Shown here: positions 8,081 to 52,084 of the stretch, one piece after another
How positions within the stretch are numbered: the stretch's first letter is position 1
Layout of the letters: every line of letters starts with the position of its first letter
Source: Bryum argenteum
Lineage: Eukaryota > Streptophyta > Bryopsida > Bryales > Bryaceae
Assembly: GCA_037043015.1 (NCBI GenBank)
Contig: CM073323.1
Location: 24,084,758 to 24,148,757 of the forward strand
Direction of reading: 5' to 3'
DNA length: 64,000 nucleotides
Position numbers and translations under genes: made by a program
Notes under the pieces: generated by a model
Told to the model about the DNA's origin: nothing
What the model saw: the letters and a program-made list of their open reading frames with translations, nothing else
Databases searched by the model: none

Positions 8081-8187
8081 ATCCAACGGTAATCACCTAC
8101 CCTCACAACACTATTTGAACGGCTACGATACGATTTTCAATACGATCTGACGGTTAAAAAATTTACTACATGCATAGTAATTCCGAT

Positions 8188-10479
8188 TTACCCCCCGGAC
8201 GGACGTCCGGACGGACGGACGTCCGTCCGTCCAAAAAAACCCAAAAGACGTCCGGATTGACATCCCTGATTTGAGGATGACCACCACGCTCTGATTGCCA
8301 AATACCGGGTCTCAGCTTCATCGGATGAACAAGCATCCTTATATTGCTTACAGAGAACCCTATGTTGGTCTTGCAATTCGTGGACGATGTACTTCTTGGT
8401 ATGAGTCTCTAATGATTGCGTCCAATGAAAGTAACAAGTACGTTCTTGGTCTTCCATCGGAATTGAAGGGTCTCCAGAGCCGTAAACAATGCGCACTGCG
8501 TTCCAGTTGGCTTGAGCACTGTCAGCCATAAATCCTTGGAACTTAGGCTTGGGTACTCCGTGCCTAGCCATGACGTGGTTGAGATTCCTCCAGAAGACGA
8601 GTTGAGCTTGAGTATCTTCAGATTGAAAATCTGAACATGCAATGGTTAGAATGCGCTGGTAATTAGGGTCGTACACATGGCACGCCATGGTAGTCCATGG
8701 CTTCACCCGTTTGACATGGTCAAACATCATCCATGCATTGGAGAGGTCGCCTCCAGGCTGCATCCGGCGGACAAGGTCGACACCACTACCGGGTCCAACT
8801 TCTGACATCTTAAAAATAAAGACTTTGTCAGAATCGTCTCCTTGGCCCGGGAACATGTTGCGTTGCACATACGCCCAGTTGCTGAGTCCTCTAAGCTTTG
8901 TGATGCCATCAAGGATGCCAAATCTGTGCATGTACTTGAAAGAGTAGATACGATTCCGCAAGCTTGGAGAGTTCAGGAGTTTACATCGATCAAAGACTGG
9001 CTCAAGTTCTTCAAGAGTTAGGTGGCTGGATTTGGGGTCATCTTCGTCGCGTAGAAGAATGTTACCCACTACGTCCTTGCTAGTCTCCAAGACAATTTTC
9101 GAAATTGTTGCTTGGGGGTTGCGGTCAACATGCTGTTCGATTAACTCATCTATCATTTGACGTGCACATCTATAGTCTCCGACTTTGACAGGGTGCTTGT
9201 GGGTACCGATATGCACACAAGCACGCTCTTGAATATCATCTCCAAAGACGTAGAAGATTTTGGCAGGACACAAAGCAACGCAGACTGGAGGTTCTCTGCA
9301 AATCTTACAGACTAGGGTGGACGATGAGGGAGGCGGTTCACTTACTGAGAAAGGTTCTTTGGTGATACCTTCAAACTCCACCTCATTGACTCCCGTTGCA
9401 CGACCCGGGCGTTCCAAATATGGGCACTTGTCATTGTGGCATTGGAGATGACCTGCGCAATTAGAATACCGAAATGACAAGCCCAGGGTGTTGCTGGTAT
9501 TTGTTGTCATCGTCCTAGTCCACACATGTCCGTCATACCGTTTGTCCATCCCTTCCATTGATTTTGCATTCTTGAGAACTGCAGAAGGAAGTATCGGGGG
9601 GAGGACATATAGGGCATCTCCGTTGAAAGATGGAGGCAGAAAGGATACTGTCTGAGTAGGGATGGAATTGAAATCTAGTTTCTTGAGAATATTCTTGCTA
9701 CCGGGCATGCTACCAAGTTTGCGTAGACATGGGAGAATGTTTTTGGGTTTTCCTGTTTGAGAAGATGGTGAGGGAGAGGCTAAGGAATAGGGCGTTGATA
9801 GAGAAGAGTTCTGAGAAATAGAGGAGACGGGTGGATGTTTGGCAGATGAACGACGGGGTGGAACGGATGGCTTTCGTTCGTCATCGGATGAATCTGATAT
9901 ATCGATACTGACACGCTTGCCTGGTTCGATCTTGACACGAGCAAAGAGGGGACCGACGTTAGAGATTGTGGAGGAGCTACGAGGTGTTAGAAGTTGAGTG
10001 GAGGCGTTCATAACTGACTCTGTCAAACCATATAGGCGATACTTTCCTGACTTCAGCTTCCACATTGTAGCGTTATTATGTAAGACGACAGGTTCTACAA
10101 CCGTGGAGTACAAGACATGAGAAGTATGTGGATCAAGAACGTCGGTCTCTAACCACAAACTGGAGACATCATAGCCAAAGCGGATTGCAAGCCAGGAAGA
10201 GGTGACTTCAGCCACACCATCAGGGCCAGGAGGAAGACAGAGAGGGACATCAGAGGCTACTGACTTAATCTCGATCAATTCCGGAGAAGGAGGCTCAGAG
10301 GTGGAAGCTATGACTTCAGCCACACTATCAGGGCGAGGAGGAAGACAGACAGGGACATCAGAGGCAATTGACTTAATCTCAATCAAATCCGGACAAGGTC
10401 GCTCAGAGGAGGAAGCCATGACAGAACCTAATGCAAGAGAATGGATATAAGAGCGGTACGAAAGAGATAATGAGTTCAT
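8188..10479 (-). CDS. Mutator-like (MULE) transposase, 3' truncated
   Basis: A single 763-codon ORF from ATG 10479; a second ATG at residue 21 (MASSSERP) is also a good start. The N-terminus holds two tandem copies of a ~36-residue unit (ELIEIKS.ASDVP.CLPP) followed by a Ser/Pro-rich linker. Around residues 315-400 is a Cys-rich region (CAGHLQCHNDKCPY, then CKICREPPVC). The C-terminal third looks like a MULE RNase-H fold: WTTMACHVYDP, GFMADSAQANWNA with a likely catalytic Asp, and CYFHWTQSL with the C..H pair typical of these transposases. The end (GRTDVRPSGRPSGG) is translation of a GGAC/GTCC palindromic repeat, so the native C-terminus including any SWIM finger is lost. Such transposases cut and reinsert Mutator-type elements. 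It diverges from the gene at 11070. Family assignment is moderately sure; activity is unlikely. Confidence 0.65.
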   Translation of the reverse strand: MNSLSLSYRSYIHSLALGSVMASSSERPCPDLIEIKSIASDVPVCLPPRPDSVAEVIASTSEPPSPELIEIKSVASDVPLCLPPGPDGVAEVTSSWLAIRFGYDVSSLWLETDVLDPHTSHVLYSTVVEPVVLHNNATMWKLKSGKYRLYGLTESVMNASTQLLTPRSSSTISNVGPLFARVKIEPGKRVSIDISDSSDDERKPSVPPRRSSAKHPPVSSISQNSSLSTPYSLASPSPSSQTGKPKNILPCLRKLGSMPGSKNILKKLDFNSIPTQTVSFLPPSFNGDALYVLPPILPSAVLKNAKSMEGMDKRYDGHVWTRTMTTNTSNTLGLSFRYSNCAGHLQCHNDKCPYLERPGRATGVNEVEFEGITKEPFSVSEPPPSSSTLVCKICREPPVCVALCPAKIFYVFGDDIQERACVHIGTHKHPVKVGDYRCARQMIDELIEQHVDRNPQATISKIVLETSKDVVGNILLRDEDDPKSSHLTLEELEPVFDRCKLLNSPSLRNRIYSFKYMHRFGILDGITKLRGLSNWAYVQRNMFPGQGDDSDKVFIFKMSEVGPGSGVDLVRRMQPGGDLSNAWMMFDHVKRVKPWTTMACHVYDPNYQRILTIACSDFQSEDTQAQLVFWRNLNHVMARHGVPKPKFQGFMADSAQANWNAVRIVYGSGDPSIPMEDQERTCYFHWTQSLETHTKKYIVHELQDQHRVLCKQYKDACSSDEAETRYLAIRAWWSSSNQGCQSGRLLGFFGRTDVRPSGRPSGG
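8197..8232. repeat. GGAC/GTCC palindrome
   Basis: The core 8209-8232 is a perfect 24 bp palindrome of the form (GGAC)3(GTCC)3, preceded by another GGACGGACGTCC. It lies where homology to the MULE transposase stops, so it may be a junction or hairpin end. Confidence 0.8.
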
Positions 10480-11069
10480 GTGGCGATGTTTATATACTGA
10501 AATAATGTTCTAATGTAATTAGTAAAAGTAAAAAAATAGTTGCAAACTTATTTTGATGATGTTTACGAAACAGAGTGACCGTGGGGGTAAAGATGGAAGT
10601 ACAATCTCCTAGATGTATACGTATGTAAAACGTATTATGTAACCACATTCTTTTAATATTGAGTACTCGCATTAAGTAAGCAGAAATGTAAAGAGGGGGA
10701 AACTAAATAAGGAATTGAGACTTGAATTTGTGACGGCGGCCGCCTCTGTCAGATAATTTGAGTGCAAAATAGGCGGCATGAAAATAGATTAGTATATATT
10801 GTCAGACACGGAATCAAAGTAAAAGATTTTGTACTGTTTCCAGATGCTGAAGTGGCAATGAGTGTTATTATGATACGCGTTTAGAGTAGTTAGGGTTTAA
10901 AGAACGGCGCAATCAAAGAGTATAAAGCTATAGGATGAGAAGAGATAATCCTCTATGTTTCTACAGATGTTAGTATGTTGAGGTTGGGTTGTATGATGTC
11001 GTTGTATTCTTGGAGTCACGCATTTTAGAAAATCGTGTCTTAAGCGGTAGGAGTTTGTAATTGTTCGCA
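10480..11069. other. Divergent intergenic region
   Basis: About 590 bases between the MULE ORF (leftward) and the two-exon gene (rightward). It presumably holds both promoters. No convincing TATA box or repeat is recognised. Confidence 0.45.
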
Positions 11070-11872
11070 ATGGAGGGTGATAGTAGTCAAGTAGAGAGAG
11101 GGAAGGATGGAGGACGCGGGAAGAAGAAGAGAAGAGGTGGCATAAAGTTTTCTGGATCTAAAGCTTTGCGACGGAGTGCGATGCGGAAGAAAGATGCGCT
11201 GGATGTGTCTGATGACGATCATATGCAAGATATAGAGGAAACGATTGATGAGTTCCTCCCAGGGAGGTTTAGAAGGAATGTAAAGATTCGGACGTTGTAC
11301 TTGGACGTTGTTACTGAGAATGCTGGGAGTGAAGACGATGGAGAACGGCTTAATTGGAACGAAGGAGTGGAGGAGCTTGAGTGTAGTAAGCAATCGCAGA
11401 GCAAGAGTGGATCTCAAGAATTTGAACCTGATAGCGCGGATAAAGAGTTCGAAAAAGTAGTAAGTTTAAATGGGAGTCTGGGTTTGCACTATGCGTTAAA
11501 CTTGATGTGATATACAGTCTTAAATGTTTTAATGGGTTTGTTCAGTGGGATGATATGGAGACATTCGTTGATGACATCTTTGGTGTTCATCCTCAGCAAA
11601 TTGAAGCCGGAGCACAAGGACCAACACAAGATTGTCAAGTGGAAGAAGAAAATGCTGTGGATGGCCATGAAGAAAAGGGCGAAGTGGAATTAGGACCGGA
11701 GCGTTTACCGGTACAAATCCCAAACCTTGGACACGAGGTAGATCCAGGATGTCGTCATGAGTTTATGATTTACGAACACCCTAATGGATTCATTCAATGC
11801 TGGTTGATAGATAATAATGAGTTTCCTTGGGCCGACAGTGAGGACCTGGACGAAGGAGGTGCTGATAGTTAA
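11070..11872 (+). CDS. Two-exon basic/acidic protein, unknown function
   Basis: Exon 1 runs 11070-11459 (ATG, 130 codons) and ends at GTA followed by the consensus donor gtaagt. Exon 2 runs 11546-11872 after a T-rich ttgttcag acceptor. The reading frame is kept across the 86-base intron, giving 238 residues. The N-terminus is strongly basic (GKKKRRGG), like a nuclear localisation signal. The middle and C-terminus are acidic, and near the end is a compact HEFMIYEHPNGFIQCWLID segment. I recognise no domain. It lies head to head with a transposase ORF, so it could be a second gene of the same element rather than a host gene. Confidence 0.6.
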
Positions 11873-12617
11873 CGTGCCACTAGGATGTAGACCCATTCAA
11901 GCCATTATTTCTACGTGTATTAGAACAGAAACTGGATATATTGTGAGAAAAGTCCAATTTTTGTGAGGTGGTCGCCCAAAAATAGAGACCATTGCCAGGC
12001 GCATTCTTAGTTCACATTCTTAGTAAACAAAATTCTAAGCGCATTTTTGGTGCTATTATAAAAAAAAAAAAGAAAAATTAGAGGAATCTTATCTATTATG
12101 TAATGGACGTTACCGAAACCACTCATGCCTTTTTTGGCCGATTAAGCCGAGTCTTCGTAGACGGCACCAGTGACATTCGACCCTCCCGATCAGACAGCCT
12201 CATGCACATGGCTATCCGGGTTGCCAGCACGAAGGCGCACCTGCCACCCCATAAGCGGAGTCATATTTAGCAGTCATCTTCAGATATTCCATTGCGCGCC
12301 ATCTGCTACAGGGCAGCTGTCATCCTCCTTTTCACTTTTGTCGATAATAGCTTCAGTTACGGGATGCCATCGTTTGTCTTTTTCGATAGTACCGAGGGTA
12401 CCATATTCACGCTGACGCCTTTTGAGATGCGAGAAAGGGTGTCGTGAATCCTCGGCTCGCTGTGCGGTCCACGATCGAAGGCATACAACAACAAAAATAA
12501 AAAATGCCGATTACGTTTGATCTGATTGGATTTGGAGAGGGAGGTGTACAGATTGAAGCACTAAGAGGTATACGGTCTTTTGAACTTTGTTTCTTTCGTT
12601 CGCAGAGAGAATCAGTG
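11873..12617. other. Intergenic sequence
   Basis: No gene recognised. It includes a short A-run near 12060 and ordinary mixed sequence leading to the exon at 12618. Confidence 0.4.
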
Positions 12618-12797
12618 ATGGCGAGTCGCGGAGCGGAGGAAACTGCAATGCGCGAGTCTGGCAGCAGCGTTGATGTAAGCGCCCTCTCCACGTTCTTGAT
12701 CTCTGGGTGGAGAAGGATGCATTGGAAAACGACAGGGAGGTTGGAGGTTACAGAAGAGGACATATTCGCAACAAAGGACTTTCGCATTCCTCAGGAG
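12618..12797 (+). CDS. Candidate first exon, unknown protein
   Basis: From ATG 12618 a 60-codon open stretch (MASRGAEETAMRES ... DFRIPQE) ends at GAG followed by a possible donor gtttgt, phase 0. The frame extends upstream without stop to 12504. A T-rich stretch ending in cgcag at 12606 could also be an acceptor. The next phase-0 exon I can find is at 24158. If the two are joined, the whole repeat array and its insertions would lie in one ~11.4 kb intron. Function unknown; exon status is uncertain. Confidence 0.35.
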
Positions 12798-15533
12798 GTT
12801 TGTGTTTGATCTCATCTCACAATGAATGTATTCATTTTGAATCTATGTTCGGAATCGTCGTTTCGGATCCTCTTGGGACCCTGTCGTTGATCAGCTGATA
12901 TAGGAGCAATTCAGCAGCCACCAAGATTATGAGAATCCGAGTGGTGTGTTCGAATGCACAGTCCGATCCTCCGAGAGGGAAACCGACCCTTACCAGCCAC
13001 TAGCTGAAGATTGATTTTCGACGTTTGGATGCGCGTTTGGTTATTCTAGTATGCGCTGCCGAAAATCTTCAAGGTTGATCAGTTTATCTAGGACCCCGAA
13101 TTACGCGATTAACAGTCACCAAGATTAGCAGTAACCAAATTTCGCGATTCCGCTCTGAACCCGCCAGTGCATGATAAGGTCGGCCGTTTTTCAGTATTCG
13201 CTGCCAAAAATCCTTGAGCTCTTCGAGCTTGATCACTTTATCTAGGACCCCGAATTCAGCAGTCAGAAAGATTTTGAGATTCCGCTCGCTCAGAACCCGC
13301 CAGTGCATGAGAAGGTAGGCCGGTTTCGTCAACGAAACTACGTTGTGGTTAGCAAGTGTTCGAGCTGTTGACATCCTGGAACCGTAATACTAGATTCAAA
13401 GTGGTGAGTTTGAATGCACAACCCAGTCCACAAAGGGGGGATCAAACCCTCACCAGCTCTTCTCGCTGTCAGGGCAGATCGTGGTATCGATTCCGGTATC
13501 ATGGCGAAGGCGTTTGCTACCTGGGAGAGTGTCCGTGTTTGGTGTTATCATTTTTGTGAATGAACTTTTTTTGTTGGGGATGTTTGTTTCACAGCCGAAA
13601 ATCCTTGAGCTTTTCGAGCTTGATCACTTTATCTAGGACCCCGAATTCAGCAGTCACAAATATTTTGAGATTCCGCTCGTTCAGAACCCGCCAGTGCATG
13701 AGAAGGTAGGCCGGTTTCGTCAACGAAACTACGTTGTCGTTAGTAACTGTTCTATCTGTTGACATTCTGGAACCGTAATACTAGATTCAGAGTGGTGAGT
13801 TTGAATGCACAACCCGGTCCAAAAAGGATGGATCGGACCCTTACCAGCTCCTCTCGCTGTCAGGGCAGATCGTGGTATCGATTCCGGTATCATGGCGAAG
13901 GCGTTTGGTATCCGTTAGAGTGTCCGTGTTTGGTGTTATCATTTTTGTGAATGAACTTTTTTCGTTGGGGATGCTTGTTTCACAGCCGAAAATCCTTGAG
14001 CTCTCCGAGCTTAATCATGTCATCTAGGACCCAGGATCCAGCAACCACCAAGATTATGAGATTCCGCTCGCTCAGAACCCGCCAGTGCATGAGAAGGTAG
14101 GCCGGTTTCGTCAACGAAACTACGTTGTCGTTAGTAACTGTTCTATCTGTTGACATCCTGGAACCGTAATACTAGATTCAGAGTGGTGAGTTTGAATGCA
14201 CAACCCGGTCCAAAAAGGATGGATCGGACCCTTACCAGCTCCTCTCGCTGTCAGGGCAGATCGTGGTATCGATTCCGGTATCATGGCGAAGGCGTTTGGT
14301 ATCCGTTAGAGTGTCCGTGTTTGGTGTTATCATTTTTGTGAATGAACTTTTTTCGTTGGGGATGCTTGTTTCACAGCCGAAAATCCTTGAGCTCTCCGAG
14401 CTTAATCATGTCATCTAGGACCCAGGATCCAGCAACCACCAAGATTATGAGATTCCGCTCGCTCAGAACCCGCCAGTGCATGAGAAGGTAGGCCGGTTTC
14501 GTCAACGAAACTACGTTGTCGTTAGTAACTGTTCTATCTGTTGACATCCTGGAACCGTAATACTAGATTCAGAGTGGTGAGTTTGAATGCACAACCCGGT
14601 CCAAAAAGGATGGATCGGACCCTTACCAGCTCCTCTCGCTGTCAGGGCAGATCGTGGTATCGATTCCGGTATCATGGCGAAGGCGTTTGGTATCCGTTAG
14701 AGTGTCCGTGTTTGGTGTTATCATTTTTGTGAATGAACTTTTTTCGTTGGGGATGCTTGTTTCACAGCCGAAAATCCTTGAGCTCTCCGAGCTTAATCAT
14801 GTCATCTAGGACCCAGGATCCAGCAACCACCAAGATTATGAGATTCCGCTCGCTCAGAACCCGCCAGTGCATCAGAAGGTAGGCCGGTTTCGTCAACGAA
14901 ACTGCGTTGTAAATAGTAACTGTTCGATCTGTTGGCATCCTAGAACCGTAATACTGGATTCCGAGTAGTGAGTTTAGATGCACAGCCCGGTCCCTGAGAG
15001 AGGGGATCGGACCCTTACCAGCCCCTCGTTGAAGGTTGCGATGTCAAACTCCTAATTCTTTGGTTTTCTGCATTTAGCTTAAATTTTTCGAATTTTTGTG
15101 AGCATTAGGAATAAAAGGGAACTTTTCTTTTGGTTTCCTTAGTATAGAAAGGCTAGGAATAAATAAAAGTATTTAGCCCCGGTTAAAATGATTTTTGAGG
15201 TTACCGGTTGGGAAGGTCAACCCGGTATGGTAACCCCGGATAGCCGTGTGTCCTGGCCGGGCGCGGGTTGGGGATAATGGGCGGCGGGCCGACCCGCCTC
15301 ATCAACCCTAATCCTTTTCGACGGCGGCCCCCATTTCGCGCCACCGCTTCTCTTCCCCTCTCATACCGCCGCTGCTCCACGTTTTGTCGTGTTGCGGCCC
15401 GGGTGTCGTCATCTTGCGGCGCGGAGTGTGGTGTCGGTAGGCCAGAGATTGCGCACCAGGGGAGTGTACCGCGTTGAGAGAAGGGTGTGAGCTGCCCGGC
15501 GATCGGGGTAGAAGTGCGGGAGCAGGAGAAGCA

Positions 15534-18330
15534 ATGGCGCCCAAGGAGAATGCGGCCAAGGAAAAGCTCGGAAGGAGAAGTCCCCGCCCAAAGCCATCCG
15601 GGAGAGGGGAGTGCACCCGAGATCCCCATCAAGGAAGCTCACCGCATGAGGCAAGGAAGACCTAACGAGGATGGGCTGCGCATCGAGTTTTACAACCGAC
15701 CTTGGAACCCGCAGAGGCCCGCGTTTACAAGGAGGTCCAGACAGGAGAGCGCACCGCCAAATTCCAGGAGGACATGGTGCGGGGGCAGCCTAATGTCTGG
15801 GAGAGGGGGCTTTGGAGGATCACCTACAGCTTTGCTGAATCCGAGGTGGGGTACATCACAGTGCGGGAAGACGAAGAAGTGCAGCGGAGCTTCTCCCAGC
15901 CTGCACATGAGCATGACGGATTCAAGGTGGAGCATTGCCTCGATTCCAGGTTGAAGAGGGTGCTGCAGTTCCTCCTACCCATACTTACCCCGGACAGGCC
16001 TTCGAGCGTTGCCAACAAAAACTCGCCAAGGCTATCCCGGAGTCATACGCGGGGAGGCAGGTAATTGGATGGCACATCATCCTGGAGGACGTAGTAATCC
16101 GGCAAAGTGTCGATAAACAATGGCAAGGGTTGCCCATTAACTCCATTCCTATTCCACCTCTACGACGCCTACAACTGCCTGGATGATGATGAGGCCGCGC
16201 AATACGCCAAGGCCTTGGAGGAGAGGCGAACCAGGATTCCAGGAGAGTTCCCCCCCGAGAAGGAGCGGGACAAGCCGGGACATCAAGGCCGGGCCGATCC
16301 AAAGAAGATCACGGGATACCAACGGAGTCGCGAAGAGGAAGGGACAAAGCAGCTTATTCCACCCCGGGCTCCCACCACAACCTCCCCAGGAGTACAACAG
16401 GAGACTCCCACAAGGGAGTACAACCCCTTCTCCCCCATCAGTCCCGTACAGGGGAGTGGCTCAGGAGAGGAGTCACTGCCCGTCGGCACTGGGGCAATGC
16501 GCCGCAATGCACTGTGCAACGGCAGGGCAGCCCCTCAACCAACACCCCGAGGCCCCATCCACCTAGACGACTCGGATGAGGAGAACCCCGTGCGGGCAGC
16601 AACCCCTCCGAGAGAAGGATCTCCTCACGATCCGGCACTGGGGAAGGAGTTAGAGGATCCGGCCGGAGGGAGAGCCCTGACCAAGGAAGAAGAGGAAGGC
16701 CACTCCGGAAGTGCACCGGAGTTGTCGGCCACCTGGGATGGGATCCCCTTCACCCAAGCTGAAGAAGCCTTCAAAGAGAAGGAAGGTGACCTTTGCATCA
16801 GACCGGGGAGTAGGAGAGACGCAACCTGTCAAGAAGGTGGTACCCCTGGCCAAGGGGAGAGTGAAGAGGAGCATCCCGAAGAGGGGGTACGCGGGTCCGG
16901 GACGGAGAGAGGTGCCCGGGGAAGCGGCGATCGAGGAGAGCAGCGGGTCCGAAACCGAGTCCATGGACATACCCCGGAAGCCTGCAAGACCCCCATCTAA
17001 CGCAGGAGAGTCCAACACCCCCGCTCCAAGGAAGGAGACTGTCCCGGAGAGAAGGAGAGGAGCCATCCCCGGTGCACCTACTCCCCTGTTCAGGATTACG
17101 GAGGAGAATCCCCTGAACCCCATCCAGGAGACCCTGCAAATGTGCATGGAGGAGCACAAGGCGATGTATCGATCGCTCAGGGGAGTAGGGGAAGTCCTGA
17201 AGACGAATACGGTGGAGCGCTACCCCGAGCTGGTGAGAGCCATGCAAGAGCAGCGAGATGCCCTCAACAAGGAGGTGAAGGAGCTGCGGGATCAGGCCAT
17301 GGATTTCTCCCTCAACGTCCTGACCCAGGATAAGGAGATCGAGGTATTGAAGAAGTATGTCTCGACCCAAAATGGGTGGGCGCGGGCTAACCTATTCGCC
17401 TTGCAGAAGACTCTGGTCACGCCAGGGGAGGCTCAGGCCAAGGCGCGGTTATTTGATGCGCACCTGCAGGGTGATGGCGCGGATGCCGCGGTGCGTATGG
17501 CTGCCTTCTTGAAGAAGTATACGGCGCGGATAGAAGGTGCCCTGGAGGAGATGCGGATCCTCCTCAAGGAGATGTATGAGCGGTTCCCAGGAGAGGCAGC
17601 AGCAGCCGAGGTAACAGCAACAGAGGCGGAGACAACCTGGGTTGTTACGGTGCGAACAGGGGGAACAGGAGGACCAGGGTGGGACTCCTTCGGTGTCTGC
17701 CCCCTTAGCCGAAGCTGATTTCGGGGAACAGATGGTGGAAGAAGCCCAGCCCGATGTTGAGATGGCATGGGAGGAGGAAGGCGATCCAGGAGTAATGGAT
17801 GAGGCCCAGCTCGTGCCCAGGGTAGCGACGGAGGTGCCCCCAGAAGAGTCAGAGGCCATGAATGTTGCCCCATCCATTTCTGCAGGGACGCAAGAAGTAC
17901 AGCTAGCAGGAATGCCAGCCACCGAAGCTCAACCCGAACCCAGGGTAGAGGAAGAGGTTCTCCCTGCACCAGGAGAGGCAAAGGCAGATCCACCCGGGGA
18001 GGAAGTAGTAGAGGCACCCTCACCGAGGGAGGAGAGAGAGCATCCACCCGGACAGGAAGTAGGAGGGGCTGCTTCACCGATGGAGGAGGAGATAGCTGCT
18101 GCCCCACCAACCCTGGAGACAGAGGAGCACGTCGAACCAGGGGAAGGTGTCCCCATGGTGGTCCCACCCGAGTCGGCAATGGATGAACAAGCTCCCCCTG
18201 GAGAGGAAGCCGTTGTGAGTGCTCCATCGGAGTTGGGAGCGAGAGGAGGAGGTGCCACTCCCGGAGGGGGGTGCCACTCACGGGGAGGTAATCGATTGCT
18301 TACCCGGAGCGGGGGGTAGTCTGCGGGGAC
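15534..18330 (+). pseudogene. Degenerate long ORF with coiled coil, inside the insertion
   Basis: GC-rich DNA with protein-like composition that can be followed by switching frames: MAPKENAAKEKL from 15534, PNEDGLRIEFYNR (~15664), an open stretch 15702-15990, another 15935-16186, an acidic Pro-rich stretch 16130-16790, then 16745-17640 and 17642-18318. At least five frame changes are needed. Around 16760 is a basic patch (KKPSKRRKV), like a nuclear localisation signal. Residues from ~17100 to 17580 are rich in heptad-like Glu/Leu/Lys, suggesting a coiled coil. The last part is Glu/Pro/Ala-rich with repeated EEV..PSP units. No known enzyme domain is seen. A gag-like or other structural protein of the element is possible but unproven. 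Confidence 0.5.
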
Positions 18331-19987
18331 TCCACTAGGAGAGGAGGTAATCAAGGAGATCCAAACCGAGCCGGAGTTGCCATCGATCGAGATGCCGGAG
18401 GTGACGAGCCGAGCGGCGGATGGTACTCCGGAGAGGAGTTCGTCGCAGAGGGGAAGTCACTCCCGGGGAAATCAAGGGGCCCACCCATTGAGGAGCCTCG
18501 CCCGGACACTACCCGACCCACCTCTAAGCGAAGTCGAGTCGGGGTACCATTGATACCCGAGACCCCTGTGAGTGGTTCCGAGGAAGTTGTCCTGGATGAG
18601 GTTGATGCCCTCTCCGGGGAACGGAACCCTTGGATGTGGAACCCGAAGGAATCACACCTGGGGAGGACCAGATCTGAAGGAAGGTGCGGGAGGCCATCCG
18701 GAGGAGCGCGAGAACCGGAGGTGACCAAAGATCCTCGCCCAAGTGGACCAGGGAGTGAAGACGGGGGTAGCGGCCAAGAGGGCACCTACCCTGGTTGGGT
18801 TTGATGGCCAACCTCGCATCAAGTTGACCAGGGCTAGATCTATCTAGCGTTAGGTTAGAAGATAGGCATTTAGTAGTAGAAGGATAGAGGTGTGTTCACA
18901 CCATTTTGGACTTGTAGTAGTTTTTGTGTGGTTGACTTATAGGCGGTCCAGGAGAGGCCACGTGGGCCTTATCCTGTCCGGGTATTTCGTGATCCACTAA
19001 AAGCGGATCTGGAGCATGAAACCCGGAGTAGCATGGAAGTACTTAGCCAAGGAATGTTCTCATTCTTTGGGTCTTTGTTTGTATCATCATCATTCTCGAA
19101 GTATCTAGGGTTGCGGCCGCCTTTCCAAGTCTAAACCGTCTTCCTTGTTGTTTTGTGTGTGTGTGGTGGTGCAACTAAGTCCCTTGCATTGTTTGCTTGA
19201 AGATCTGGAGGGAAGGTTAGTGTTGGTGAGATCTGTACTAGTGTCCAGGGTAAGGAGTTTTGGCAGTTAGGCGTCACTACGAGTCAGTACTTTAGGTGAA
19301 CAGGGGTTCCCTAATATTCCCCGGGGACAGTGGTCTAGCGCGGGGAAGTTGGTCACTGTTGCGGAGAGTGGGTCTTAGTCCTCCTACTATCCTGGATCTG
19401 TATCCAAAGTTGTCCCTTTCTACCTTCTATCCTGGTCTGGGAGTTAACGTGTGAGTAGCCATACCAACAGGGAAACATTGGCACCCTTATAGTGACCTGT
19501 ACCGGGGTTAACAATCCTGGTATTGAAGGGGGCCGAGTCTAACCCTGGGCGAATTCGACCTAAGAGAAAAGAGCGTTGTGGGTGTGTTTATGTGTTGTGT
19601 TGAGTAGTGAGAGAATCGAGGAGAGAGGAAGTCAAGTGCCCTAAATCCAGCACTCTAAACTAAGGGAGAACCCTCTGATGGACAAACTGAGGTAAAACTA
19701 AACCAGCTTGGAGATATATTGGTTGACCAGGGTAGGAGGAGTTAAACTCCCCTGGAAGGAAACCAGGACAGGAGAAGCAGAATTGCTAACCAGGAGATCA
19801 GCACCATCCTGGTTAAAGGAGAAGTAAGACAGGACAGTGATAGAAGCACTGTCCTGGGAAGGTTATCCTAGTCACTTTGGAGCTCAGTGAATCCCTGCGG
19901 ATCGATTAATCCGGATATCACCTCTGAGAGTGTTCTTAACACTTAAAAGAACACTAAAGGGGAATATCGCTATCACGAATTACGACA
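18331..19987. other. Non-coding right part of the insertion
   Basis: No stable open frame after ~18800. It holds GT-rich transcribed-looking sequence, the hairpins noted for the element, and its right terminus ACGACA. Confidence 0.4.
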
Positions 19988-21730
19988 TGCGATATCAGGG
20001 CAGATCGTGGTATCGATTCCGGTATCATGCCGTAGGCGTTTGGTATCCGCTAGAGTGTCCGCGCTTGGTATTATTGTTGATGGGTTGAAAGTTTTTGATT
20101 GGGATCCCCGTTTTTACTTGGTGTGTTATAAACATTCGTCGACGAAACTGTCTAGGCTCTCTGAGATTGAACAACCGATGTAGTACCCCGAATTCAGCAG
20201 CCTCCTGGACATTGAGAATCCACTGTGAACCCGCCAGAACACGAGGTGAATCTCGCTCGGTTTCGTCAACGAAACTGCTGTGTGGCTAGTATCTGATCGA
20301 TTGTGGTAGTATCAGGCTCCCGGGATCCTAGTTACTGATTGGCGAGGTCGAATGCATAGCCCGGTCTACAGAGCGGGAATCGGACCCTCAGCAGCCTCGC
20401 TGTAGCCTAGGTGCCGACCGCTTGCGTGTTGGTGGCCACTGCTTTGTGTGCTCAGCCCAGTACTTGGGTCGGTTTCGTCAACGAAACTGAGTTCTATGAG
20501 ATCCGATATCGACATTCATTAGGATGGTGCTTGCTTGAAATCTCGGGAGTGTTTGCGTTTGGGATATTGTTTGTTAAGTATGGACATTATGCGTTTGGGA
20601 TACTCGTTTTTGCTTGTGGTGTTATGAATATTCGTCGACGAAACTCCTCGAGCTCTTCCAGCTTGAACAGCTAATGTGCGACCCCAAATTCTGTAGCCAT
20701 CTAGATATTGATAATCCGCTGCTCAGAACCACACAGTGCACGAGGAGAAGATTGGCCGGTTTCGTCAACGAAACTGCCTTGTGTATAGTGTGTTATCGTG
20801 TTTTGTTACTGAGTGGCGATTATATACGTAGCCCGGTCCACAGGGCAGAGACCGGACTCTAACAGCCTTGCTGAAGCCTCGGTGTCGAACGCTTGCGCCA
20901 GCTCAGCCCTTACTTGATCGATCACCAGATCACTCGGTCGGTTTCGTCAACGAAACTGAGTTCTATGAGCTCCGAAATTCTCAGGAGTGTTCTCCGGAGT
21001 GTTTGCGTTTGGTCTCTTTTTTGTTTAGTATCGAAATTATGCGTTCAGGAACTCGTTTTTGCTCGTGGTTTGAGTGACATTCGTCGACGAAACAGCTTGA
21101 CCTCTTCGAGATTGAAAGCTACTGTAGGACCTCGAATTCATTAGCCATTGATAAACCCCCTCAGAACCCGGTCGTGCACGAGGAGATCCCCCCCTTGTTT
21201 CGTCAACGAAACTGCCTTCTGGCTGAGTTCCAACAGATAGCCCGGTCTGCAGCGGGGAGCAAACCCATGCCACCCCCCCCCCGCTAAAGCTTGCGCTCTT
21301 AGCCAGATTCTGGTATCAATTCCAGTATCACCAAATTTTCGTTTGGTATCTGACTGAGTGTCCGCGTTCCGTTTCTTTATCTTTCAGTAAGAATATTTGT
21401 CGTTGGGGATGCTCGTTTTTACTTGTGGTGACATCAACATTCGTCGACGAACCAGCTTGAGCACATCCACATTCAACAGCGGTTGGAGGACCCAAAACTC
21501 AGCAGCCTTTACGATTGTGAGCATCCGTATAGAACCCGGTCGTGCACGAGGAGAAGCCCCGCCAGTTTCGTCAACGAAACTGCCTTCTGGCGCCGAATCT
21601 TATCGGTTTTGTTGAATGCCGACTCCAGGAATCCCAGCTACTCAGTGGCGAGTTCGAATGCATCGTCCGGTCCACAGCGGGAATCTAATCCTTGCCAGCC
21701 CCTCGCCGAAGCTTGTGCTCTCAGCCAGAT

Positions 21731-23023
21731 TGTCGCGCACCTCTCCTTGAGGAGTGCCCGCAACACCAAGGGCCCAAGGGGGACACCGGAGTGACACCCG
21801 GGCCTTGGGGTGCCAAGGTGAAGGGAACCTAAGTGGGCCTAGTGTGGGAGAGGACCCCGGGCGTTGGAGACGCCTCTCACCCACGGAGACTAGGAGCCAC
21901 GAGGGAATGGACATGAGATTATGGAAGCTCATGTTGCCACGATTCCGGGATGCTAAGGAGCACCTCATTTGGAGGTGTGAGCTAAAAGTTATGGGAGTTG
22001 GAAGATTGTGGGACTAAAGGGAGTGCTGTCCAGGGACAGTGCTGGACTGGGAAGCTGGCCCGGGACTCCCGAATCTTCAGAGGGGCATAACTCCCTCAAT
22101 ACTTGTCGGAATGATGCAAGTAAGGTGTCTATCGGCATCTACTTGACGAGTAGATGTCGATAGAGTGGTCGCTCGTCGCGTTTGGATGCGGGACGAGGTA
22201 GATACGAGCCCTGGAAGGTTCGGGAAGTCTCCCGGGCCTTCCAGCGGCTAAGGCATTGGGAGATTGGGTGGTCTTCCAAAACTAAGAGGTGTGAGGGTCC
22301 AGCCCTTCACCTAGGACCAGGGGGCTGCCGAATCCCACAGAGTATACTATGGGGAGGGCTGGTCTCCTCCCCACTCCCATGGTGCCTTGGTGGTGACCAA
22401 GGTGGGAGTCCCGAGTGGTGTGGCTAGTGTTGGGGCCTCACCATGGGGACTCCCAAGCCAAGGTGAGTCCCAATGGGTGGAGCTAGTGTTGGGGCTCCAC
22501 CATGGGGACTCAAAGTGCAAAATGAGGCACGGTGGGTGGAGCTAGTGTTGGGGCTTCACCACGGTGGCTCATAAGGACAAGGTGAGTCCCGGTGGGGAGC
22601 TAGTGTTGGGGCTTCACCACGGGGACTCATATAGGCAAAATGAGGACCATGAGTGCTACCGATGTGGGGTGGTGTCTCACCGCCGGCGTTGTGATTACTT
22701 GGTGGCCTTGGGGTCACCATGGTGGTCATGGGCGGTGGTGAGGAGACACCACCAAGTGCGGTTAGGCCGCGTGGTAAGGGAGTGCCACCAAGTTGGGCCT
22801 TGGACATAAGTGGAAGTCCGCACCTAACCATTGGCTACCTACGAAGGGGTTGAGTCCCGGTTGCATGAGTAAGAGGGATTGATAACCAAGCGGTGAGCTC
22901 GGTGGTTGGTATGGAGAGCTAACTTTGTGCATGTGGGGGATGTGCAGAGTTAGCGCTCGTGACACTTGCTAGAGTTGGGAAAAAGTTGGTGTAAGCCAAG
23001 GTGAGCTAGCAAGGGTTGCGACA
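21731..23023 (+). mobile_element. Solo-LTR-like insertion, 1293 bp, 5 bp target duplication
   Basis: It starts TGTCGCGCACC and ends GGTTGCGACA, so the termini are TGTCGC..GCGACA. The flanks are CAGAT on both sides (21726-21730 and 23024-23028). The array sequence CAGCCAGAT..CGTGGTATCGATTCC is restored if the insert and one CAGAT are removed. It has no coding capacity. Inside (about 22380-22640) are four tandem ~60 bp units with GGAGCTAGTGTTGGGGCTTC. These traits fit a solo LTR left by recombination of an LTR retrotransposon. It shares the TGTC..GACA ends and 5 bp duplication with the element at 15042-19987, but not the sequence. Confidence 0.8.
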
Positions 23024-24157
23024 CAGATCGTGGTATCGATTCCGTTATTACCACACAAGCGTTTGGTATCTGTTGAGTGTCCGCGTTTGGTTTTTTTAAT
23101 TTTTAGTCTGACATTGGGAAAACGTTGGGAATGCTCGTTTTTACTTGTGGTGTTATCAAGCTGATGGTGGACCAAGAATTCAGCAGCTTCTTAGGGTGAG
23201 AATCCGCTCAGATCCCGCCCGTGCAGGAGGAGATGGTCGGTCGGTTTTGTCAAGGAAACCGCCTTTACGTTAGAAACTGATCGATATGATGACATCTGGC
23301 TCCCGTAATTCTTGATTCCGAGTGGTATTTGCACTGCTTAGCCCGGTCCACAGAGCGGGGATCGAACCCTTACTAGCCCCTCGCTAAACCTTGCGCTGTC
23401 AGGGCAGATCTTGGAATCGATTCCGGTATCATGGCGTAGGGGCTGGTATCATATTCGCCGCCGAGAAACCTTGAGCTCTTCGAGCTTGACCAGCTGATCT
23501 GCGACCCAGGATTCCGCAACCATCAAGATTAGGAGATTCCGCTCAGTGCCGCTAGTGCATGAGGAGAACGTCGCCCGGTTTCGTCAACGAAACTGCCTTG
23601 TGCTCCGAATATGATCTGATCTGCTGAATGCCGGCTCCCGTTATTCCGAGTTCAGCAGCCTTCAAGATTTTGATAATCCGCTCATAACCCGCCAGTGCAG
23701 GAGTATAAGCCCGGCCAGTTTCGTCAACGAAACTACCTAGTGGCTCCGAATGTGATCGGTTTTCTTAAATGAATTTGTTGAATGCCGGTTCCCGGGATCC
23801 CAACTTCTGGTGGCGAGTTCGAATGCATAGTCCAGTCCACAGCCTCGCTGAAGCTGAAGCTCGAGCTCTCGGAGCAGATGGTGGATTCGGTTCTGGAATC
23901 ATGGCGTTGAATCTGGTTTCAATGAGCTCCGAAAATGATATTCAATTCGATGCTGCCTTCTTGAAAGTGCTGATGGACAGTCCGCGTTTCGTACCTTCTT
24001 ATTTGGTGTCATATTGATACCAAGGATGTTCTATAGGAGAATCTGGGTTGTTTTATTTCTATACGTTCCGTCCTTTTAATATTATCACCAAATTATCTTC
24101 TCGGATTTGATAATTTTGTACTAACTCTCTACTTTTTCTTTGTGTTTGCTGATGTAG

Positions 24158-24651: not shown

Positions 24652-27600
24652 ATGTTGTCTGAGAGCGATCGTATCGACATGGCCACCACTGAAGGACGTG
24701 ATGGGAGACAGCAGTCAGGACCGCCATCGATTACTGCACCAAGCCCCCAACTCACCTCCCAATCTCCCATTGTCGAAGACGACGATGACGACATTCAAGA
24801 GATAATTCCGGGAACACAGCCTTCGCGCGACAGTGATGAAGTTGACGATGGGAAGACATTTACGGTAGCAGCGTCGCCAACTGTAAGATCTGCGAGGGAA
24901 TCTCCTTCTCTCCTAGATACTTTGGAGGTTGGGGTTGTTGAAATGCCAAGTCATTTGGCAGAGATGGATCCTATGTGGAGCGCCGACGAGTTACGCGCTC
25001 AACAAAAGGGAAACTCAATCAACACTATATCGAGATTGCGAATCAAACCAGTCGAGAAATCTCGACTTCGAATTCCCCTCTGTCGCCTCTCATGTTACCC
25101 CAAGGTACGTCCTATCATAGAAACAGATGTTTGCAAGTTGGCAAACGAGTTTGTCAAAGGTTATAGAGAGGGCGATCGTGTTCTATATGTTTCCCCCTAC
25201 AGCAAGAACGGTAAGCAACGGTTGGTGAAGGACGATGATGCTGTTTGGAATAACCCTCATTGGAAAGCTGCCAATGATCGGTTTGAATCCTTATTGCAAG
25301 CCGATCCGGACCTTTGCCAATTCAGTGGCAAATACTTCTATGTCTATGAGGGGAATCATCGCGTCACTGCTTGGATGCGGTACATCGAGCAAATGCGCAG
25401 AGATGATCCGGATTGGTATTTCTTTGTCGACTGCATTGTCCTTGACGGACGTGCGGAATACAAAGTACTAATCGACGCTATGAATGACATCAACTGGTGA
25501 GTTCAATTTCATATCATTTTCATTATCTGTAATCTTTTGTACAAAAACTGTATTTCTTTACTAACTCACTTTCTGAACAGGTCCACTGAGCATGACCATG
25601 TAGAAGATAGTCTGCCATCGAGGTTGCAACGCATGCGCAAGTTTGGCAAGATGCCACTTGAAGAATGGAAACCCCTGATCTCTCCTGAGGACTGGAAGTA
25701 TTGTTACACTGCCAAAGATAAGCTGAGACCAACTTGGTACTTTGTGACAAAGGACGTCTTCATCAAGTTTCTATACGCGGTGCGTCTTTTATCATAGCTT
25801 CAGTTCGAATTATTTTCAACTAGCCAATTTACATTCTCTAACCTGCGTTCTTTGATCGTCCAGAGGCAATGTGCTAAGGTTGCCGACGAAGCCCAAGCCC
25901 AGTACTATGAAGATACTCCCGTAAACGAGTGGACAGCGCAAGGAGTTTGGACGGCCATGGACGATGCTCTTAAGGCTGAGATCAAACGAATCCGAGAAAA
26001 GGATTTCGACAAAATGCTTGCCATTGCTAATCCAGAGTTAGGAAAAGCATTTGAGCAAGAGGTATGAACTCAATCGACCAAACTTCGTGTCTTCTCTCGA
26101 TCCCTTGTCCATCCCTCTATTAAAATTCATAATCTCTTTGTTCTGTATCGATGCAGATTAATCTCCATTATAGCCGTCAGAAGGATCCCGAGATGTCTTT
26201 GGAGCGCCTTCAGAAGGTTGCCACCACCAACGTTTCGAAGGAAGTGAAAACAATGTGGCTTCGTTGGTCGAACAACACTCCGACATTCCGACGTAGTGTT
26301 CGCTTTCCGGACCCGGTCGAGATGAAAGACAGGGTGTTGGAGGCATGGCTTGCTCGTGCAGCATTGTGGTCCCAAGTACTTCATATCCAATCAATCACAT
26401 GCCTTACAACATTTTGCCCATACCATTATCTGATGTAGTTTACTAACTTAAATCGTTGACCACAGTTAGCGGCGTATCTGAAGGAGGAGGTGGACAAGTT
26501 CTTCAAACAAGAGATTCCCCAAATCCCGAACCTTGACGCAATTATGATGCCCGAAGAGTACGTCGAAAAATGGCGACTTCTTTTATGGGATAAGGCTTTT
26601 CATGCTTATGTAGGACCCAAAGCCAGCCCTAAGTTCCTTAAAGGCTCTCATATCGACAAGATTGGCGGGGGTGCTCAAACTAAGAAGCGATTGATGTTCA
26701 GGTTCGAGCACGCCGTTTCGTATTGTCTTATTTCTTATCATCAAATTCTTCCTAATGATTCTAATTGGTTATACTTTTGTAGGTATATCAAACAAGAGCT
26801 CGTTGCTAAGGGTGGTCTTGCTCCACTGGGCATTCCCTCTAAGTTTCAAGTCTCCTACTTGAAGAAAAAACCGATGTCGATTTTCTCCAATGACCAGAGG
26901 CAGCGGTTCAAGATGGCTTTACTGTTGACTGGTAGTTGGTTCCTAGAGTCCCAAACCCACCATGTTCATAAGGAAGAGATGCATCTTCTGCAGTTATCGG
27001 AATCGGGCGACGCCGCTCCTGTGCAACTACAGGATGATGATGATGACGATGACTTCTACATGCTTCCGGGTGCTCCACCACCACCCCCCCCCCAGCTGCA
27101 CTTAAAGGTAGAGGAGATGCAGGTGGTAGCCGAAAACGACGCAAGAAAGAGCCTACCCCTGAGCCAGAGGAGGAGGAAGGAGAAGAGGAAGAGGAGGAGC
27201 ACGAAGAGAATGACGAAGACGACGACGAGGAGCATGGAGATGTTCCCATTCCCGATGAGCTTGCAGGTGGTGAAGATTCAAATGTATGTAAGTTACTTTT
27301 TTTAATGTACGTTGTTCTTTATGTAACATATACACTTCTGTTCATTGCAGTTCAAAGAGAAGTTGATATGACACAAGCTTCCCAAGGGACTGTTGTCAAC
27401 AACAGTGGGCAAGGTGTAAGAGGTCCAACTGCCTCAGAGAGGCAGCCAGTTCTGCCACAAAGGCAGGGTCGAGGGTGGACCCAAGCATCTCAGGGTGGGG
27501 TTTCGAATGTGGGATCTACTCCTCCATCGTCGTCAGCCCCTCGTGAATCCCCTCTGTCACATGGACCGACCCAATCTCATGGACCCATGCGTCCCATAGT

Positions 27601-29139
27601 CATTCCCAAAAATGTGGGTAGTACTTCATCTTCTCCTACGAATGTGACGCTCCCTATGTTCCTAGAGAAAGGAGACACGGCCACCTTGGTACAGCAGTCT
27701 ACGAAGGGTGCAGGCTGGGTAGACGCTATTCAGGCTATGGTACAACACATTAAGAAGGTGAATCCCTCGCTAACAAATCATTGCTTTCTTAGAGTAGTTA
27801 CTCTATAGTGCTCTTTGGGTACTAATTACTTTGTGTCTAATCCACAGATTGGAAAGGGTAGGGACTACCCTTGCGAGAAGATGGAATACAAGCCCAATCA
27901 CCCCGGGATTGACCTTATCTTTGCAGACGTCCCGGAGAACTTGCCTGTGCTTGGTGTCTCGCCGGACGCAGTTCCCGACTGGAACAAACGACCGTCGTTT
28001 TACTTCGAGTCTGTGTTTGTCTTCGCCTCATACCATTTGACTGACCTTGGGACTATCCTTATTATGCACCCAAAGGACCTCAAAATTGACCGCATCCTAC
28101 ACGATCGTGCTAGTACTTACAATTTCCGGCTTGTACGAGAGTGGTGGGCCTATAACCCACTTCCTTTGGTTAGACCTGGCGCTGCCGCAAAAGAGGTAAA
28201 CTTCAATTATTGCACTTGATTTTATCAATGTCTAAATTCAGCATTACATTTACTTATTTTGAATTGGTTATTGCAGACCCATAACTTTACCATCAAGGTC
28301 TATGCTCGTAAGGACTTCGTGAAGTTGTTCAATATACGGCAGGTGGCGCAAGCATACGCAGGAGTCGCGATCATACCTGACGAGGATGACATGGTCAGTA
28401 ACTTTGCTGATGCGACTTCCATTACCTACCGCACTAACGGGAAGCCGTGGCGTGGTGCACGTGAGAAGGATCCGTCGTTTTTGCAGTGCTTCGTGGATTG
28501 CCTCACGGACGATGGAGGAATCGTGTTTGACTTCAGCGCTAGTACAGGTAAAAATTTAAGTTTTCATTTATAACAAGTTTGAAAATTGATATTTTCAATA
28601 CTCATGTGGATTTCCAAATGTGCAGGTGCTTCTATCATCGCATGTGCACGCTCCAATCGACACCTTGTTGCTTTCGAAGCAGATGAGGAGATTTTTGATG
28701 GGCTCTTGGCCACCTTCAAACACCCTAAACCGATGGAAGAAGAAAGCGGAGAATCAACATCTGGCGACGATTACGACTCCGATGAACCGTATCTGAAGAA
28801 GCCTCGCACTTATATTGGTGTGTACTCAATTAAATTCAATGACTTTTTGTGATTTCGGAGTTTTTACTACTTTCAGCTGCCATTGACTGGTTACAATTAT
28901 TTAGATATGCAGGCATCTCAAGAGAATTGACCCGGAAAGCTCATCTCATCAATAGCCCACCTCCCACACTTGTTCTACCCTCTTATGCGGAGCATGTTGC
29001 TCGGGCTTTCGTCGCTGCTCCAACTCCTCCTGTACCGAATTCTTCACGCCGACGCTTTAGAGCTGGTGTGCTTAGGTACATTGACTTAGAGGCAGATCAG
29101 TGTGACCATCATTTTAATGGTGCCTCACCTTCATCGTAG
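24652..29139 (+). CDS. ParB-like / DNA amino-methyltransferase-like fusion protein
   Basis: Ten exons with GT..AG borders and matching phases: 24652-25496, 25581-25779, 25864-26061, 26157-26375, 26466-27287, 27351-27757, 27848-28195, 28277-28547, 28626-28817, 28877-29139. They total 1254 residues if one C is restored in the C10 run near 27080. A disordered acidic N-terminus is followed (residues ~141-270) by a ParB-like domain: IPLCRL, RPIIETDVCKLANEF, then VYEGNHRVTAW (E233-R237). A helical middle leads to a Pro run, a basic patch (RKRRKK, ~710) and an acidic tract. From ~898 is a class-beta amino-methyltransferase layout: motif IV IDLIFADVPEN (D924), hydrophobic strand GTILIMHP, motif X-like NGKPWRGAREKD, motif I VFDFSASTG (D1098), then FEAD (E1121). 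DPPY is replaced by DVPE and the FAGSGT loop is altered, so catalysis is doubtful. ParB/methylase fusions are known from phages and mobile elements. The intron structure shows a settled eukaryotic gene, probably a nuclear DNA-binding protein. Confidence 0.75.
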
Positions 29140-30360
29140 TGTGTGTTTTTTTTTTTTCCTATGTCGGAGATGACTTTCCAGGGCCAACTGTAATGAGTTG
29201 CCTTACCCTACAAGTCATTACTTTCATATGTTTTACATATTTTTACATGTATGTGTGTTTGCCGTTAACCGTATTGAACAGTTTCAATGTCCAAATCTGT
29301 ACTCAATCTATTTGTTGGATTCACTTGTTACACCCCACAATTTCAAATGACATTTAAAATTCTAAAATGTATACAAGGTCTTGAACGTCACTGCTACCCT
29401 ATATTTGTCAATGTCTATAGGAGCTTCTGTTTTTTTCCTATTAGCTCAGGATAGCTGCCTCGTGCATAACGCGATGCTCAAACGAGCCCGATGGGGATCG
29501 AACCCGGACCTCCGCTATGCCATCGTTATGTCTAAACCGTCCACTACATTAGATTAAACGATGAGACGATTTCTATTACTGCAATTTGAATTATATAATT
29601 ATTTGACATTTATATTCTTTACTTTATCAGTATTATGTCACAACATGCGCAGTATTCTTTGCCGAGATCATGTGAGAGGCAACTATCCAAGGACGTAATA
29701 TATATCTCTGGGGTTCTTTGTATTTTAATGATGACGTCAGCCCTAATTTATCCCTAAACCATAAACCCAACTACGACTTTCACAATTACCTAATACATAT
29801 ACTCAATTTAACCTTTCGATAGTCATGCCTCCGATTCACACGTTCATCAATATGATGACATCAGCCATACTTTCAATATATTAACATAATATTTTCAAGA
29901 CATTACTAACGAAATATTCTTGCGGGGTGGGACCCACATTAAAAGAAGACCCAACACCACGGAAATAGGGACCCGAACCCCTAAAAATAGACATTTCAAA
30001 ATAGTTGATTACAAATTTCAGTGGTAATAGGGTACTTATCTTTTCAAAAAAACTCTTATAAAATAGTCAAATTTGTCCCGTCACTGCTCTACGCTCACCG
30101 CTCACCGCTCTACGCTCTACGCTCACGCCTCTACGTTCCCCGTAGAAGGCCCGGGCCCATTTTTTTCAGTCTGACCGATTGAAGGTATTAAAGCGATGCA
30201 TTGTCTTTAACAAAGCTGTTTTTATTGGAGAAGCCGAAACAAATTGCATACAAAGTTTTATGCTAAGTCTGGCTAATCCGAAAGTCGGTTGACTGCTGCG
30301 CAACGAACTATACAAACTGCCTGCAATTCATACTACTTGTAACCTACAATATACTACATA
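29140..30360. other. Intergenic region between convergent genes
   Basis: No gene seen. It contains a SINE-like fragment (29430-29560) and a short tandem of CTCACCGCTCTACG units (about 30087-30138). It separates the 3' ends of the ParB/methyltransferase gene and the SET gene. Confidence 0.5.
29430..29560 (-). mobile_element. tRNA-derived SINE-like fragment
   Basis: On the minus strand GTAGTGGACGGTTTAGA resembles a Pol III A box. About 35 bases on, GGGTTCGATCCCC is a perfect B box. The sequence between does not fold into a full tRNA cloverleaf, and a non-tRNA tail follows, ending near a TTAGCTCAGG/T-rich stretch. This is the head structure of a tRNA-derived SINE or a decayed tRNA gene. Confidence 0.5.
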
Positions 30361-44225: not shown

Positions 44226-44545
44226 GAGTCGGCCACCACATTGACTACAGATGGGTTCCCACAACTTGCTGATCAATTGTTTATCGTGCCCATGCACCCA
44301 TTGATTCATGGATCGATGGACACGACATCTTCCGCTTATTGTTGCTGCGAGTAGCGAGTAGCAACGTGAGAGCTTCTCTGCTTCCGTGACGGTTTCTAAA
44401 CAGGCAGAATAGTTGCTCCAGCGAGTATAAAGCCAGCTGCATCCCTCAGCTCGAATCATCTTCTCTCTCGTTCTCCCGCTTCCTGCTTGCACCACTCTTC
44501 TCAGCTCGATCAGTCTTTGATCAGTCTGCAAAGCGCTCCTGAGTC

Positions 44546-45022: not shown

Positions 45023-45319
45023 ACAGAGTGTCTAGTTGATCGTTCTGATGCCACTCTTGCTACATTTCAGTGCACGTACGTACATTGAGGTGGCTGGCGG
45101 ATGTGTTGGCAGTGTCGGTAGCTAGATTGTGTGTGTGTGTTTGTGGAAGTGCGAGGGGGGTTGAATGGGCGGACTGCATGTAAATTGCATTGGCATGCTA
45201 CTTTTCAATGGTAGTCCTCCTTATGTAGATTGTAAAGGCAGTCCATGTAGTACAGATTGAGGTGTCTGTAAATCCACGAATCTGTATAACATCAATAAAA
45301 CAATTGGGGTTGTATACAC

Positions 45320-51953: not shown

Positions 51954-52084
51954 TATAAAGCCAGCTGCATCCCTCAGGTCGAATCATCTTCTCACTCGCT
52001 CTCCCGCTTCCTGCTTGCACCACTCTTCTCAGCTCGATCAGTCTTCGATCAGTCTTCGATCAGTCTGCAAAGCGCTCCTGAGTC

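Follow-up and report, generated by a model that had tools for sequence, protein, structure and literature searches.

Is a gene that seems to join a ParB-like domain to a DNA methyltransferase-like domain a domesticated host gene, or does it belong to a mobile element? The question is raised by a 64,000-nucleotide stretch of Bryum argenteum contig CM073323.1 (hereafter the window), in which the original prediction placed such a gene, here called gene 2, and read it as an ancient transfer now domesticated. That observation is confirmed in part: all peptides quoted for the gene are found in 24652-29139, and its coordinates and motif order are as first given. The gene itself, however, is not a single domesticated one. 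Gene 2 is an accessory gene of a DNA transposon of about 15 kb, which occurs in many copies with common ends and carries two divergent genes.

Gene 2 belongs to a multicopy two-gene transposon

Searches covered a 258.8-Mb assembly of 25 contigs, with the window lying within contig C3. The methyltransferase-like piece of gene 2 gave 307 exon-level matches (150 scored of 2073 candidates), and the gene-2 matches listed are spread over contigs C1 to C11, with identities of up to 95% outside the window. Upstream stretches of four near copies align with the window as far as the block at 8270-12129, and in copies L033 and L034 the upstream stretch is long enough to reveal the coding part of another gene, gene 1, which diverges from gene 2. 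Both genes are divergent also in L049-L051, which belong to a clade about 60% identical to the window copy. Homologues of gene 1 are thus present in L033, L034 and L049-L051, and a genome search with gene 1 returned 150 matches (150 scored of 1053 candidates).

Copy number and element structure, i.e., the linked gene 1 and the common ends, led us to reject the single-copy domesticated gene. In its broader form, this explanation holds that a host gene arose from an old viral or mobile-element transfer. The introns and the conservation of gene 2 agree with such an origin, but hundreds of dispersed matches, the common ends, the linked transposase-like gene and decayed sister copies do not, and the position of gene 2 inside a repeated element refutes domestication at this locus. 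We consider this explanation very improbable. Among viral sequences in IMG/VR, 13 stretches fitted the pattern of alignment A2 and 5 that of alignment A3, none of which was confirmed by tblastn, a distant viral relative being still possible.

In the window, the open reading frame (ORF) of gene 1 encodes 773 amino acids and starts at about 10.5 kb on the strand opposite gene 2. By eye, its product resembles a transposase of Mutator type: it seems to have a zinc knuckle at the N-terminus and, in a C1 copy, a SWIM-like CxC...CxH arrangement at the C-terminus. Gene-1 ORFs matched no Pfam family, the transposase profile of Mutator-like elements (MULE) included; the SWIM profile scored 9.2 bits in the C1 copy, below its cut-off of 19.6, and the PDB search with gene 1 gave chance-level matches or none. 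The element is provisionally placed as MULE-like. An insertion with GGACGGACGTCC-type repeats (8180-8270) interrupts the transposase-like ORF of the window copy.

The ends of the element were mapped with queries of 411 and 427 bases, one for each end, against 40 scored copies apiece. On the left, homology starts at query positions 1-3 in 33 of the 40 copies, the query copy included, and at position 2 or 3 in 31. Copy C1:43805597-43820741 has both ends, 15,145 bp apart, which are imperfect inverted copies of each other (identity in 41 of 52 aligned columns). It is flanked by the 10-mers GTCCCTAAAG and GTCTCTAAAG, which match at 9 of 10 bases and probably represent a 10-bp target duplication. 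A probable duplication in the 9-11 bp range of Mutator-like elements was seen in one copy, at inferred ends. CTAAAGGG, considered earlier as an 8-bp target duplication, was superseded by this overlapping 10-bp one, placed at ends mapped from other copies; a candidate element end at window position 29676 proved to be an internal indel.

The original prediction knew of no described plant protein with this pairing. Accessory genes of this kind are already described from algae, so gene 2 represents a known kind of gene. The 21.5-kb Ectocarpus transposon Sola1-1_Ec32 is reported to encode, on the strand opposite its transposase, a protein of 1104 amino acids that is both ParB-like and a DNA methyltransferase (PMC12477816). 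The same paper, citing Iyer 2011 and Petroll 2025, mentions similar proteins in transposons of green and red algae. Compared by description, Sola1-1_Ec32 and the present element share the claimed domain pairing, a similar protein size, the opposite orientation of the two genes and residence in a large DNA transposon. The architecture of gene 2 agrees with this published account, the ParB part here being recognized by motif alone. Sola1-1_Ec32, however, comes from a brown alga and belongs to the Sola1 family, whereas the transposase here lacks a Pfam match and the target duplication is probably 10 bp. The passage on Sola1-1_Ec32 makes no mention of a palindrome array or of a lost catalytic motif (PMC12477816). 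A literature search on ParB with transposons and on N4-methylcytosine yielded, going by titles and the beginnings of abstracts, only that paper as relevant to the pairing. The host group of gene 2 may be new for this accessory class, and the result adds, to the algal members of a little-known class of transposon genes, one from a genome for which a moss protein is the nearest named relative. Two further points we have not seen described: a palindrome as candidate binding site, and a catalytic motif that has been lost.

A methyltransferase-like domain with altered catalytic motifs

Gene 2 is a real gene. Ten exons were first counted for it; 11 are counted here, separated by 10 GT-AG introns of 63-95 nt; for the last intron, alternative in-frame choices exist. 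The exon pattern recurs, in whole or in part, in 37 copies besides that of the window (29 near copies and 8 of the clade of about 60% identity), and the exons are independently backed by these homologues together with the purifying selection acting on them. Selection was gauged by the ratio of nonsynonymous to synonymous divergence (dN/dS) over pairs that are not independent of each other, with synonymous divergence saturated (>1.3) in the other clade and across clades. The N-terminal core is the best conserved part of the protein, with median dN/dS of 0.08 among near copies (6 pairs), 0.05 within the other clade (11 pairs) and 0.10 across clades (1 pair). Medians for the methyltransferase-like part are 0.20, 0.09 and 0.11, respectively, and values for the N-terminus and the linker range from 0.2 to 0.4.

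The methyltransferase-like domain has, as predicted, the class-beta motif order IV-X-I: in exons 8-10, the motif IV-like IDLIFADVPEN precedes the X/I-like REKDPSFLQ...VFDFSASTG. Judged by sequence profiles, its relation to class-beta DNA methyltransferases is real. In an hhalign comparison with 13 methyltransferases of bacteria and phages, the family matched at 95% (expectation value, E, 3.7e-8) over 200 columns, as against 0.3% for the reversed family, and IDLIFADVPEN was paired with the DPPY motif and VFDFSAST with the DPFxGxG motif. The window's methyltransferase piece moreover matched phage methyltransferases, three families in all, with E between 3.3e-5 and 9.3e-5. The methylase profile check proposed for the gene thus succeeded at the level of the whole fold, in profile-profile comparison, while single sequences stayed below the Pfam cut-off: PF01555 gave 18-19 bits (19.2) against a cut-off of 26.7, and matched 2 of the 7 members of A2 below cut-off. 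The NCBIfam search listed methyltransferases at E 0.045 and 0.093. In the PDB, the methylase piece found two chains of methyltransferases, with E of 0.59 and 0.74, and the methylase profile found no methyltransferase.

Where the domain departs from class-beta N6/N4 enzymes (PF01555), which it resembles in fold-wide profile and in motif order, is in the motifs themselves. The catalytic (D/N/S)PP(Y/F/W) is replaced by D-x-P-E-N in all seven rows of A2, and the S-adenosylmethionine (SAM) motif DPFxGxG by D[FW]S[AP]STG. A near copy (L021) reads DVPKN at the catalytic position, and distant relatives read DAPSN, DAPED, DLPEG or DVPEN. A methylase-like domain with altered catalytic motifs is kept under purifying selection.

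These replacements bear directly on the proposal that the gene-2 product is an active methyltransferase for N4-cytosine or N6-adenine, which would bind and modify its own transposon. The relation of the whole domain to beta-class enzymes and the purifying selection fit such activity, and the authors of the Ectocarpus study suggest that the algal proteins bind and epigenetically modify their own element (PMC12477816). The altered catalytic and SAM motifs, the former altered in distant relatives as well, argue against it, and in our opinion an active enzyme is unlikely.

Bacterial-type methyltransferases are not otherwise foreign to eukaryotes. Marchantia DN4MT1 is one such protein, and both it and the N4CMT of bdelloids are host genes and are not known to be transposon accessory genes. 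Bdelloid N4CMT is again a bacterial-type methyltransferase in a eukaryote (PMC8885841).

Palindrome arrays and a possible role for gene 2

In the non-coding region that separates the two genes there are 17 TTCGNNNNCGAA palindromes, at 13325-14889, 20135-21567 and 23580-23720, of which 13 lie inside GTTTCGTNNACGAAAC. Genome-wide, GTTTCGTNNACGAAAC occurs at 98 sites (1 for the reversed pattern) and TTTCGTNNACGAAA at 464 (32 for the reversed pattern). TTCGNNNNCGAA was present in 7 of 8 intergenic regions and in 0 of 4 control segments. Proximity to gene copies was assessed for the first 50 of the 464 sites (contig C1, up to 22.4 Mb), with gene copies taken from the matches listed: 35 of the 50 have a listed gene copy no more than 20 kb away. 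In 2000 random draws the corresponding number averaged 5.8 and never exceeded 14; unlike these draws, the actual sites are clustered. Among 41 repeat units picked by their flanks alone, 34 contain the exact core, whose columns are 0.93-1.0 conserved as compared with 0.50-0.55 for the flanks. The flank model was derived from sites with an exact core, which introduces a mild bias; at a lower threshold, the palindrome is kept in 44 of 72 units. The palindrome TTTCGTCAACGAAA may be the binding site of the gene-2 protein.

Copy L049, of the clade of about 60% identity, carries another palindrome, CTTCGGTGCCGAAG, which is built in the same way and is present in 8 copies within repeats of a 117-bp period. 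Its pattern CTTCGGNNCCGAAG occurs at 25 sites genome-wide (8 for the reversed pattern), 12 of them in two clusters, one in L049 and one within 5 kb of a gene-2 match. A CpG is present in each half-site, as TTCG or CGAA, in all palindrome types seen. With few arrays to compare, co-variation between the ParB-like core and the palindrome type is mixed: L049 differs, L051 does not, and L050 has none.

A segment at 15050-19985 interrupts the palindrome region of the window copy and is unmatched in the four copies compared; the ORFs within it (16098-18804) have a gag-like look, and the one checked has no Pfam match. Elsewhere, the gene-1 copies at C1:2827337 and C1:11626597 have palindromes 5-12 kb away and no gene-2 match among those listed; perhaps they are accompanied by a third, more divergent type of gene 2.

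The layout recalls that of VANDAL elements, Mutator-like transposons of Arabidopsis, whose anti-silencing protein VANC binds motif arrays in non-coding tandem repeats (PMC5735166; PMC10398659). As described there, VANC is the product of a DNA-transposon accessory gene, its short-motif arrays lie in non-coding tandem repeats and change rapidly, and the motif differs between related elements. An accessory gene together with motif arrays in the non-coding repeats of the element is what is found here too. The likeness is one of anatomy; the VANC21 motif YAGTATTAY is not palindromic. Because of this anatomical resemblance, the leading candidate role for gene 2 is that of a palindrome-reading, anti-silencing protein.

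We tentatively favor, at somewhat less than even chances, the view that gene 2 encodes a self-recognizing and probably anti-silencing accessory protein with a non-enzymatic methyltransferase-like module. According to this proposal, the ParB-like core or the middle region would let the protein recognize palindromes within its own element, and the protein would spread or cluster over the array, so that the promoters of both genes stay clear of host silencing. The methyltransferase-like domain would be a DNA- or SAM-binding or reading module, not an enzyme. Gene 2 would thus resemble VANC in effect, using different parts. Palindrome binding, the identity of the protein partner and the effect on silencing are all deduced here by analogy. 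The arrayed and conserved candidate site makes the idea of self-recognition directly testable, and, if the proposal is correct, anti-silencing would have been reached by an unusual path, through a methyltransferase domain that lost its catalytic motif and stayed under selection.

A more specific version compares the palindromes to bacterial parS, a palindromic site that is likewise present in several copies. Strictly conserved CpG palindromes between the genes would then form an address, read by the element's own former methyltransferase acting as a reader or blocker of host DNA methylation, and related elements would use other palindromes, each protecting its own kind. We regard this version as possible, if rather doubtful.

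Several observations weigh against an anti-silencing protein that reads its own palindromes. Fifteen of the 50 palindromes lie far from any listed gene copy. L050 has, at the same position (L050:4397-6589), a 329-bp tandem array of 6.7 copies without such a palindrome; this array may hold another recognition motif. As to the element itself, the target duplication comes from a single copy and contains one mismatch, with the right end set at its modal place, 2 bases short of the copy's own match end. The exons, predicted to be consistent in phase, are so except inside exon 6, where a run of ten C (27084-27093) disrupts the frame. Among 28 distinct copies that match on both sides of this tract, the window included and copies lacking either match left out, the two sides share a frame in 11 and differ in frame in 17; the sides were searched apart with the frame left unmended, and other indels may contribute to these counts. 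The tract may be a hotspot of slippage or decay, the sign of a missed intron with a C-rich acceptor, or a site of frameshifting. Its length varies from no run of at least 5 C up to 14, and all three frame relations occur across the 28 copies.

The DNA-binding partner of the palindrome may, moreover, be gene 1. The palindromes could be sites for the gene-1 transposase or for a host factor, with gene 2 doing something else, such as aiding the formation of the transposition complex. Of the 50 sites checked, 20 have a listed gene-2 copy within 20 kb, and every one of these is upstream of that gene. At 10 sites gene 1, too, is within 20 kb: 7 of them fall in the interval separating the genes, and the other 3 coincide with the gene-1 match or lie beyond it. 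For this reason, the palindromes are no nearer to one gene than to the other. Nothing decisive stands against this arrangement, which we nevertheless judge to be on the unlikely side.

The ParB label, too, counts among the weaker points of the proposal that gene 2 reads the palindromes. It is weak: what is seen is a motif and matches to one phage family, and Pfam and hhalign profiles do not back it. GNHR, the GxxR-type motif that recalls bacterial ParB, is at least 90% invariant in 43 rows, and the ParB-like phage family phrog_1033 is matched by 7 of 8 members (best E 0.0055). The difference from bacterial ParB is the lack of a significant profile match: neither the 8 nor the 43 members matched ParB_N (PF02195) in Pfam, and hhalign against 91 Bacillota ParB sequences gave 0.1%, equal to the reversed control. 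Against six GHHR-type sequences it gave 1.1% (0.02% reversed). These values are at noise level, since a mismatched comparison of the ParB-like family with the methyltransferase reference reached 5.3%; the alignment of GNHR with GERR/GHHR is at the same level. PDB searches with the ParB-like part gave chance-level matches or none, and the NCBIfam search gave nothing for the ParB-like exon. The low hhalign values suit the alternative of a new, unrelated domain in the N-terminal part, serving in DNA binding or protein interaction, in which GNHR resembles ParB by chance. The phrog_1033 matches and the published pairing of ParB with a methyltransferase in algal transposons (PMC12477816) speak for a ParB relationship instead, and we take chance resemblance to be the less probable explanation, though one to be reckoned with. 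In the protein database, the domain alignment found 108 relatives, among them KC19_VG030900 of the moss Ceratodon purpureus; with the full N-terminal piece as query, nothing reached E 0.001 among the 8000 candidates scored.

Layout of the window copy and neighboring sequences

The features of the window copy are listed in Table 1. This copy likely begins at a left end located 10.5 kb ahead of the window, at C3:24074252, and would then span about 40.6 kb, nested insertions included.

Table 1. Parts of the transposon within the window (window coordinates)
Feature	Position	Strand	Remarks
Gene 1 block	8270..12129	-	Probable transposase ORF 8188-10509, cut at 8270 by insertion; conserved upstream part to 12129
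Non-coding intergenic region with repeat arrays	12128..24100	.	17 TTCGNNNNCGAA palindromes; foreign insertions
Gene 2, exon 1	24652..25496	+	Acidic N-terminus, then ParB-like core with YVYEGNHRVTAW; core dN/dS 0.05-0.10
Gene 2, exons 2-5, conserved middle region	25581..26701	+	25581-25779, 25864-26061, 26157-26375, 26466-26701
Gene 2, exon 6	26783..27287	+	Ten-C run 27084-27093 disrupting the frame, then basic and acidic tracts
Gene 2, exon 7, faster-evolving linker	27351..27757	+	From copy comparison and dN/dS
Gene 2, exons 8-10, methyltransferase-like domain	27848..28817	+	27848-28195, 28277-28547, 28626-28817
Gene 2, exon 11, C-terminus and stop	28913..29139	+	From splice reading and copy comparison
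Right end of element	30120..30141	+	Terminal inverted repeat ending CGCCTCTACGTTCCCC; modal homology end, 19 of 40 scored copies

Just beyond the right end of the element, an ORF at 30476-31309 on the minus strand encodes a SET domain (Pfam SET, E 2.9e-19) and may be a host gene or part of another element. Closely similar ORFs at four places, 44521-45039, 51898-52578, 57725-58381 (minus strand) and 61818-62447, constitute a local dispersed repeat family.

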